Source: Propionicimonas paludicola (lineage in GTDB: Bacteria > Actinomycetota > Actinomycetes > Propionibacteriales > Propionibacteriaceae). Taken from it: a DNA stretch of 64,000 bases. Where the stretch lies: contig NZ_PDJC01000001.1 in NCBI RefSeq assembly GCF_002563675.1, positions 744,001-808,000 of the forward strand, written 5' to 3'. Positions 15,318 through 18,109 of the stretch are shown piece after piece. The translations under genes and the position numbers were made by a program. Every line of letters begins with the position of its first letter. Within the stretch, counting starts at the first letter, position 1. The notes under the pieces are model-generated. The model saw nothing but the letters and a program-made list of their open reading frames with translations. It was not told where the DNA came from and did not search any database.

Positions 15318-16048
15318 CCGAGCCGATGTTTTTGGCGGTGCTCGCCGACCCCGAGGTCGGGCAGGCGGTCTCGCTGGCCGGCGAGGAGAGCCGGCACGCC
15401 ACTCAGGTGCGCCGGATCCGGGTCGGCGAGGTTGTCTTGATCAGTGACGGCGCCGGAACTGCGGTGCGCGGCCCGGTGACCGTCTCGGACAAGGCCGGCC
15501 TGACCATCAGCGTGGCCGAGGTGCTGCGCGAGCCGGTACGTCCGGTGCGTTACGTGGCTGTGCTGGCCCTGGCCAAGGGCGACCGGGCCGAGCTCGCCGT
15601 GGAGACGCTCACTGAGCTGGGCGTCGACGAGATCATCCCGTGGCCGGCCGAGCGTTCGGTGGTCCGCTGGGCTCCGGATCGAGTCGAGCGCGGCCTGACC
15701 CGGTGGCGCGCCACCGCGCGGGAGGCGGCCAAGCAGAGCCGCCGGTTCCGGGTGCCGACTGTGACGGTCCCGGCCACCACGGCTGAACTCGTCCAGCGGA
15801 TCGAGCAGACCCCGCTGGCCCTGGTCCTGCATGAGGCTGCCGAGGAGCACCTGGCCACGCTTGCGATCCCCACCAGCGGCGAGGTGATGTTCATCGTCGG
15901 GCCCGAAGGCGGTCTGACCGATGATGAGGTGGCCGAGTTCGTGGCCGCCGGCGCGAAGTCGGTGCTGATCTCGGACGCGGTGCTGCGCACCTCCAGCGCC
16001 GGCGTGGTGGCGTTGGCGCAGCTGCAAGCTCTGGCGGCTCGTGGCTGA
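15314..16048 (+). CDS. rsmE: 16S rRNA (uracil-1498-N3)-methyltransferase RsmE
   Basis: SPOUT methyltransferase modifying U1498 of 16S rRNA. The 244-residue protein has an N-terminal PUA-like part ([14 protein letters not shown]) and the C-terminal knot with [17 protein letters not shown] and [16 protein letters not shown]. dnaJ-rsmE adjacency is widespread in Gram-positive bacteria. Its 3' end overlaps tgt by 8 nt. Confidence 0.94.
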
Positions 16049-17267
16049 CTTCGGCTTCACCGTCGGCACCGTCCTGGACAACGGACTGGGCCGCACCGGG
16101 GTGATCAACACCCCGCACGGACCGATCAAGACTCCCGCGTTCATCGCGGTCGGCACCAAGGCCACAGTGAAGGCCGTCCTGCCCGAGTCGGTGTCCGAGT
16201 TAGGAGCGCAGGCGGTGCTGGCCAACGCCTATCACCTCTACCTGCAGCCCGGCTCGGACCTGGTGGACGAGGCCGGCGGACTGGCCGCTTTCATGAACTG
16301 GCCCGGGCCGACCTTCACCGACTCCGGCGGCTTCCAGGTGATGAGCCTGGGTGTCGGCTTCAAGAAGGTGCTGGCCATGGACGCCACCGGCCTGGCCAAC
16401 GACGACGTGATCGCCGAGGGCAAGAACCGGCTGGCCCATGTCGATGACGACGGGGTCACCTTCACCTCGCATCTCAACGGCGACCGGCATCGGTTCACCC
16501 CCGAGGTGTCGATGCAGATCCAGCATCAGCTCGGTGCCGACATCATGTTCGCCTTCGACGAGTGCACCACCTTGCTGAACACCCGCGGCTACCAGGAGCG
16601 CTCACTGGCCCGCACTCAGGCCTGGGCGGTGCGCTGCCTGGACGAGCACGCGCGGCTCACCGCCGAGCGGGTCGGCAAGCCGTATCAGGCGTTGTTCGGC
16701 GTCGTCCAGGGCGCCCAGTACGAGGATCTGCGCCGCAAGGCGGCCCGGGATCTGGCCGAACTCGAGACGTCCGGACAGTCCTTCGACGGCTTCGGCATCG
16801 GAGGTGCCCTGGAGAAGGAGAACCTGGGCACCATCGTCGGCTGGGTGTGCTCCGAGCTGCCCGTTGACAAGCCCAGACACCTGCTGGGGATCTCTGAGCC
16901 GGACGACTTCTTCGCTGCCATCGAGGCCGGCGCGGACACCTTCGACTGCGTGATGCCGTCCCGGGTGGCCCGTAACGCGGCGATCTACACGCTGGACGGA
17001 CGGTTCAACGTGAACACTGCGGCCAACCGGCGCAACTTCGCCCCGCTGGATGCCGAGTGTGACTGCTACACCTGCGCCAACTACTCCCGGGCCTACCTGC
17101 ATCACCTGTTCAAGGCCAAGGAGATGCTCGCCTCGACGCTGGCCACGATCCACAACGAGCGGTTCACCGTCCGGCTGGTTGACGACATTCGGGCCAGCAT
17201 CGAGGAAGGCCGCTTCGCCGAGTTCAAGGCCGCCTTCTTGGGGCGGTTCTACTCCAGCGCCCGCTAG
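16041..17267 (+). CDS. tgt: tRNA-guanine(34) transglycosylase with altered substrate loop
   Basis: Exchanges guanine-34 in GUN tRNAs for a queuosine precursor. The 408-residue TIM-barrel shows DSGGFQ (Asp about 94), FDECTT (Asp about 173), nucleophile Asp in FDCVMPSR (about 302) and zinc ligands CDCYTC. The loop that reads GGLAVGE in classic preQ1-using bacterial enzymes is GGALEKE here (about 254-260), so the incorporated base may differ. GTG start overlaps rsmE, making it the last gene of the hrcA operon. A YhhQ-type transporter converges on it, and no queC-queF or queA is visible. Confidence 0.92.
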
Positions 17268-17401
17268 CGCGGACGCTGTCGACTACGCCACGGGCGAGGG
17301 CCGACGCGATTTGCAGGCTCGATCACCCAGATCGCACGGATCGCCCACCCGATGCCGATCGAGACGGCAAATCCGGTCAGGCCCCGCCGCTCAGTTGAGG
17401 A

Positions 17402-18109
17402 TCAGGCCGCTTCGCGGCGCTTGACCCAGGGGATCACCCGCAGGGTGACCGGGAGCATGACGGCTTCGACGACGACCTTGTAGATCCAGCCGACCAGGAA
17501 GAAGTTGATCACCGCCGGCCACGGGACGGCGTCGCCGCCCAAGAAGTTGCCCAGAGTGCTCCAGGCGATCAGGCTGAAGACCGCCGTGTCAGCGAGTTCG
17601 CCGACGATGGTGGACGTGATCAGTCGCACCCAGAGGTGCCGCTCGCCCCAGCGCTCCTTGATCCGAACCAGGACCAGCGCGTTGAGCAGCTGACCGGCCA
17701 GGTAGCCCAGCAGGCTGGCCACCACGAACCGAGGGACCACGCCCAGCACCGTGTGCCAGGCGTCCTGGTTCGGCCAGTCGGGCGAAGGCGGTGCGATGTC
17801 CACGATCACGAAGGTGAGCGACATCACCGCGGCCAGCACGAAGCCGGTGATGATGGTGCGGTTGGCTCGGCGCAGTCCGTAGACCTCCGCCAGGACGTCC
17901 CCCAGGATGTAGGTCAGTGGGAACAGAATCGCGCCGCCGTCGGTGAGGATCGGCAGCAGCTGAGCTCCGCCGACGCTCCAGTCGGGGCCGAAGGCAATCA
18001 GCTTGGTGGCTCCGATGTTCGAGATCAGGAGCATCCCGACGAAGGCGGCAACCACCAGGTCGTAGACCGAGCGGTTCGGGCGGGTTTCCAGCGTCGTCAG
18101 TTGCGGCAC
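17402..18109 (-). CDS. yhhQ: Queuosine precursor transporter (YhhQ/VUT family)
   Basis: A 235-residue membrane protein with about six hydrophobic segments. Family signatures include LLISNIGATKLI, the acidic LTDGGAILFPLTYILGDVLAEVYG and the late GELADTAVFSLIAW. YhhQ proteins import preQ0, preQ1 or queuine. Start taken at GTG 18109, since the upstream extension is Arg/Cys-rich and not membrane-like. Facing tgt across 134 bp, it suggests salvage of a Q precursor rather than de novo synthesis. Confidence 0.88.
   Translation of the reverse strand: MPQLTTLETRPNRSVYDLVVAAFVGMLLISNIGATKLIAFGPDWSVGGAQLLPILTDGGAILFPLTYILGDVLAEVYGLRRANRTIITGFVLAAVMSLTFVIVDIAPPSPDWPNQDAWHTVLGVVPRFVVASLLGYLAGQLLNALVLVRIKERWGERHLWVRLITSTIVGELADTAVFSLIAWSTLGNFLGGDAVPWPAVINFFLVGWIYKVVVEAVMLPVTLRVIPWVKRREAA

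Follow-up and report, generated by a model that had tools for sequence, protein, structure and literature searches.

A shortened base-binding loop in the Tgt of a probable queuine-salvage gene pair from Propionicimonas paludicola and other Actinomycetota

Carrying tgt without queA and queG/H has been described as the genomic signature of queuine salvage (PMC10570037, PMC6593275), and tgt-only genomes, including those of most Mycobacteriales species, are predicted to be queuine salvagers (PMC6593275, PMC10570037, PMC5372724, PMC11130926, PMC11570991), as is the majority of Actinomycetota in a set of gut genomes (PMC11130926). Chlamydia trachomatis, in which tgt is accompanied by a QPTR/YhhQ transporter and in which queA, queC, queF, queG and queH were not found, salvages queuine; Bartonella henselae, with the same minimal gene set of tgt and QPTR, prefers preQ1 and has traces of preQ1 in its tRNA (PMC11570991). 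The Bartonella case shows that gene content alone, the usual basis for predicting which base the Tgt of an uncultured bacterium uses, can mislead. Specific residues that could alter specificity have been noted in the Tgts of tgt-only bacteria (PMC5372724, Supplementary Figure S1), and the queuine-type motif is typically GG[LS][AS]G (PMC11570991, in the methods of which a Nakamurella Tgt was modelled). For the preQ1-using Tgt of Z. mobilis, Val233 is held to limit the space for queuine, the V233G replacement enlarges the pocket, and C158V lowers preQ1 affinity (Km up by about an order of magnitude); with V233G, alone or together with C158V, the enzyme still inserts no queuine (PMC3660597).

The window analysed here is a 64,000-nucleotide stretch (G000:C1:744001-808000) of the P. 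paludicola genome, which is a single contig of 3.26 Mb and 98.5% complete. It holds a tgt gene for tRNA guanine(34) transglycosylase (16041..17267, plus strand; 408 aa, GTG start) as the last member of a co-directional run, after a probable hrcA (13131-14147, plus strand; assigned by eye), dnaJ (14151-15317, plus strand) and rsmE, for 16S rRNA (uracil1498-N3)-methyltransferase (15314..16048, plus strand), whose end tgt overlaps by 8 bases. As the initial annotation had proposed, a gene for a queuosine-precursor transporter of the YhhQ/QPTR family converges on tgt from the minus strand (17402..18109; 235 aa, stop at 17402, probable start at 18109), with 134 bp between the two stop codons (17268..17401). 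The transporter passes the curated cut-offs of the QPTR/YhhQ profiles (TIGR00697, 111.5 versus 50.95 bits; PF02592, 164.3 versus 27.2 bits) and falls far below that of the equivalog for E. coli-type preQ0/preQ1 transporters (NF008406, 55.1 versus 252 bits). No Rfam family, the preQ1 riboswitch included, matched at 12500-20000; promoter and terminator scans gave nothing better than shuffled sequences, and no terminator-like site was found within the 134-bp gap. A small acidic open reading frame adjoins yhhQ (18244-18678, plus strand).

By profile search the Tgt is a full-length member of the bacterial family (TIGR00430, 424.1 bits versus a curated cut-off of 306.75; PF01702, 420 bits). In the alignment, Asp102, Asp156, Gln203 and Asp280 of the Z. 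mobilis enzyme correspond to D94, D173, Q223 and D302, and its zinc ligands Cys318, Cys320, Cys323 and His349 to C340, C342, C345 and H371. The catalytic Asp and the CxCxxC...H zinc site, already described as intact, are accordingly present (D94, D302, C340, C342, C345, H371). A DECT stretch (codons 173-176; 16557..16568, plus strand) holds the presumed base-recognition Asp173 and Cys175, the equivalent by alignment of Z. mobilis Cys158. The predicted structure (28 rows) had a mean pLDDT of 78, with 74 over the loop block 251-260 and mostly below 50 over residues 97-129, and its best structural matches were Z. mobilis Tgt entries (40% identical, TM-scores of 0.80 and 0.87). Fold, catalytic Asp, zinc site, Gly229-Gly230 and Cys158 are thus common to the window protein and the Z. 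mobilis enzyme, whereas the window loop is three residues shorter and without VGE, Leu stands for Met260, and an insert follows MSLG. This insert (about residues 105-130; 16353..16430, plus strand, by alignment) lies where the model is unreliable, with pLDDT mostly below 50, and was not present in the QueA-positive Tgts that we examined by alignment.

We searched the whole host genome with profiles for QueA, QueC, QueF, QueG and QueH and obtained no match at E <= 0.001; among 14 control genomes the same profiles matched 9 (QueA), 12 (QueC), 8 (QueF), 9 (QueG) and 2 (QueH). The initial annotation had seen no queuosine synthesis gene, and for these five proteins this extends to the entire genome, in which a full de novo pathway of QueC, QueF, QueA and QueG or QueH was thus not found. 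The gene content agrees with the definition of direct queuine salvage in PMC10570037, namely tgt without queA and queG/queH, and the earlier suggestion of precursor salvage is supported by tgt and the transporter occurring together without a match to any of the five profiles. The organism apparently cannot make queuine and probably imports and inserts it. Compared with C. trachomatis, which has the same two genes and the same five not found, the setting is a 3.26-Mb actinobacterial genome, tgt and the transporter are convergent neighbours, and the loop reads GGALEK, not GG[LS][AS]G (PMC11570991).

The pairing is widespread among relatives. Within a set of 77 genomes that includes the host, 46 carry Tgt and 42 carry YhhQ (a TIGR00697 match), the latter never without Tgt; 41 of these 42 matches exceeded the curated cut-off. 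Propionibacteriales predicted to salvage queuosine precursors have been said to be strikingly without known transporters (PMC11130926), a remark that these 42 of 46 Tgt-positive relatives qualify. Both genes were on the same contig in 36 of the 42 genomes, within 10 kb in 33 and within 500 bp in 15, and every pair within 10 kb on one contig was convergent (33/33). Four genomes of the window's genus had Tgt without a YhhQ match; as all are drafts (G015, 300 contigs; G009, 180; G011, 170; G024, 100), this could result from gaps or from the use of another transporter. Among the best 80 of 583 confirmed named loci, YhhQ was present in 60, on the same strand as tgt in three of those, and five of the 20 loci without it have less than 1.2 kb of DNA downstream. 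In these 80 loci the arrangement occurs in Propionibacteriaceae, Rhodococcus, Nocardia, Nakamurella and Brevibacterium, and none of the six loci named Mycolicibacterium had YhhQ within the locus.

Profiles for QueF and QueH matched none of the 77 genomes. The QueA profile matched 24 of them, none over its cut-off of 267 bits, and QueG matched 33 positions in each of two genomes, neither over the cut-off. QueC matched 15 genomes, 14 over Pfam's low cut-off: the match was long and strong in two (G048 and G073, both without Tgt), intermediate in one (G017, 9% contamination) and confined to a short stretch in the other twelve. Of the 24 sub-cut-off QueA-like proteins, 18 matched over a long stretch, with scores of about 118-150 bits, and Tgt itself went unmatched in 21 of the 24 genomes. 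Weak QueA matches of this kind were also obtained in genomes of genus g24 without Tgt, in the phylum set described below.

The base-binding loop GGALEKE lies at codons 254-260 (16800..16820, plus strand), as the initial annotation had placed it, and its description as unlike the loop of preQ1 enzymes holds. The canonical preQ1-type loop, GG-x-x-VGE with Val233, is not found, and from GG to the LP of LPxDKP there are 19 residues in the window Tgt versus 22 in Z. mobilis (loop region GGLAVGEGQDEM) and human QTRT1 (GGLSGGESKSQF), by a hand count with which the alignment agrees. GGALEK likewise lies outside the queuine-type motif given, as typical, in PMC11570991. It had also been treated as a local oddity, which is ruled out: all 80 named relatives, taken as the best 80 of 583, have a GGA[LIMF] loop, as do 12 further Tgts.

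For the register of the loop we used 93 relatives, namely the window's own Tgt, the best 80 of 583 confirmed named loci, which were drawn by similarity and are therefore a biased draw, and 12 Tgts from whole-genome searches. Across these 93 rows Gly254, Gly255, Ala256, Lys259 and Leu262 never vary; Leu occupies position 257 in 85 rows and Glu position 258 in 91, but at position 260 Glu stands in only 30. This pattern rules out the earlier matching of GGALEKE to GGLAVGE one residue at a time, which is further contradicted by the spacing to LPxDKP and by the predicted structure, in which the helix begins at residue 259; such an alignment misleads, the loop being shorter and without a conserved E at its end. 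From the conservation pattern and the helix start, E258 likely corresponds to Glu235, which would leave Val233 and Gly234 without a counterpart. MAFFT placed the gap differently, aligning Leu257 with Val233 and E258 with position 236; the exact gap position is ambiguous, and we prefer E258 opposite Glu235. Elsewhere in the pocket, the equivalent of Met260 is Leu in 93/93 rows (L282 in the window) and that of Cys158 is Leu in 80/93 and Cys in 13/93, the window's C175 included (best 80 of 583 in both counts). Human QTRT1 differs from the window protein in its full-length loop with Gly at 233 and in Val161 in place of the Cys at position 158 (PMC3660597).

The loop type was then compared with QueA in a phylum sample of 346 genomes for which per-genome rows were complete. 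A Tgt match was present in 220, of which 185 had a strong QueA (E <= 1e-60; 183 of them over the curated cut-off) and 35 did not. QueA was scored in the whole-genome sets. Full-length GG-x-x-VGE was kept in 70/70 Tgts read from QueA-positive genomes, and VGE was seen in 1/31 read from QueA-negative genomes. The 70 were chosen from the 185 as the 30 best-scoring, which biases them to canonical loops, followed by 40 picked by hand in other families; the majority of these 40 score lower, and nine were located via the position of QueA. Several low-scoring families lie outside this sample. From the 35 QueA-negative genomes, G268 (Tgt E 3e-11) and G286 (a draft with QueA E 1e-37) were set aside and G046, G147, G365 and G418 left out, and two members of the 77-genome set, G061 and G064, were added. 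Of the resulting 31 Tgts, 13 have the GGA type of loop (the window's own among them), 17 have a GG[ST]LG type, and the remaining one is the single exception, G256. The last is a 370-contig draft whose nearest rows in the tree are QueA-positive, so its QueA may be lost to an assembly gap.

In a tree computed without the loop columns, each of the two VGE-less types formed one clade (SH-aLRT 100). The tree covers 80 of 141 rows by a quick method without bootstrap and long branches meeting were flagged, so the relation between the two clades is unsure; with only two such clades, the association between loop and QueA rests on few independent events. The shifts at other pocket positions are not exclusive. 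H280 (position 258) and L282 of the window differ from 68 of the 70 QueA-positive Tgts read, among which position 158 is Leu in four and Pro in five, position 260 is Leu in two, and His258/Leu260 occur in two; Leu158, His258 and Leu260 are therefore not confined to the shortened-loop class. Within the window's class, the phylum sample holds 14 genomes with a clear Tgt match, own included, and each of them carries YhhQ. YhhQ was also matched in 31/185 genomes with Tgt and QueA, so the transporter is not specific to queuine salvage. The GG[ST]LG loop, one residue shorter than the canonical one, comprises 17 Tgts (L147-L172, families f38 and f46); none of these 17 genomes had a YhhQ match, and if a base is salvaged there, another transporter is used.

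We consider it likely that the tgt-yhhQ pair is a direct queuine-salvage module acting through a shortened-loop Tgt. The YhhQ/QPTR-family protein would import queuine from the environment, and Tgt would exchange it in one step for G34 of tRNAs with GUN anticodons, which would make QueA, QueG and QueH unnecessary. The shortened loop would pass over the 7-substituent of the base without retaining in place the valine that blocks queuine in Z. mobilis (Val233), and the shortening could leave room for the cyclopentenediol. Queuine is the best inference for the base of this Tgt because, without QueA and QueG/QueH, known enzymes could not finish an inserted preQ1. The eukaryotic QTRT1 (GGLSGGE) likewise has no valine at 233 and uses queuine directly, as is proposed here. 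As GGALEK is outside both the canonical and the GG[LS][AS]G motifs, it looks like a variant solution to queuine use. A broader reading is that actinomycetes came to use queuine through a loop deletion that removed the blocking valine, not through the eukaryotic Val-to-Gly swap, with Leu for Met260 and mostly Leu158, and with a second clade (GG[ST]LG) one residue shorter; this we hold tentatively, at slightly less than an even chance.

The main rival is that preQ1 (or preQ0) is salvaged and left as the terminal tRNA base, as in B. henselae, with the shortened loop still binding the small aminomethyl group. The unmatched published queuine motif and the kept C175 would suit preQ1 use, and in Bifidobacterium breve, a member of Actinomycetota without queA and queG/H, the transporter was shown to carry preQ0 and preQ1 (PMC11130926). 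We nevertheless regard this as unlikely, since Bartonella keeps the canonical GGLAVGE loop (PMC11570991) and the shortened-loop Tgts have no VGE, the transporter scores 55 against the 252 bits of the E. coli preQ0/preQ1 equivalog, and Leu replaces Cys158 in 80/93 relatives (best 80 of 583 included), although the Km evidence from Z. mobilis concerns C158V, not Leu. A longer pathway, in which non-homologous enzymes would finish preQ1-tRNA to Q or another derivative, has a parallel in the undiscovered finishing step raised by the authors of the B. breve study (PMC11130926); it leaves the loop change unexplained, the identified neighbours (dnaJ, rsmE and the transporter) suggest no such enzyme, and we think it very improbable. 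Least probable in our judgement is that Tgt uses a 7-deazaguanine that is neither queuine nor preQ1: a loop that fits neither known motif, and L282 and H280 that differ from 68/70 QueA-positive enzymes read, would suit this, but the identified neighbours suggest no maker of another base and the usual partner is a queuosine-family transporter.

Queuine salvage of this kind is ordinary and already predicted in print, and it is the loop variant that is modestly interesting. That the loop class goes with QueA absence in the phylum sample gives a testable sequence rule outside the published queuine motif, and it touches the question of which actinobacteria rely on other organisms for their queuine. 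If the loop-deletion route and GG[ST]LG are indeed both queuine-using, one phylum would have reached this specificity along two further routes. The GGALEK loop may already be described: the actinobacterial loop is perhaps in Table S2 of PMC11570991. A literature text search for GGALEK gave apparently no article on Tgt among the matches listed, and a search on Corynebacterium tRNA found nothing.

Over the 93 rows (best 80 of 583 included) each zinc-binding Cys is kept in 90 and the His in 92. Three GGA-loop Tgts are without the usual zinc ligands in the alignment (L165 in G324, L170 in G330 and L173 in G115), two of them from genus g34 and one from outside the window's class. The seven nearest named relatives of the window Tgt are 84-88% identical to it, all from metagenome-assembled genomes, and are labelled Propionibacteriaceae, Propionicimonas (one), Propionibacteriales or Actinomycetota.
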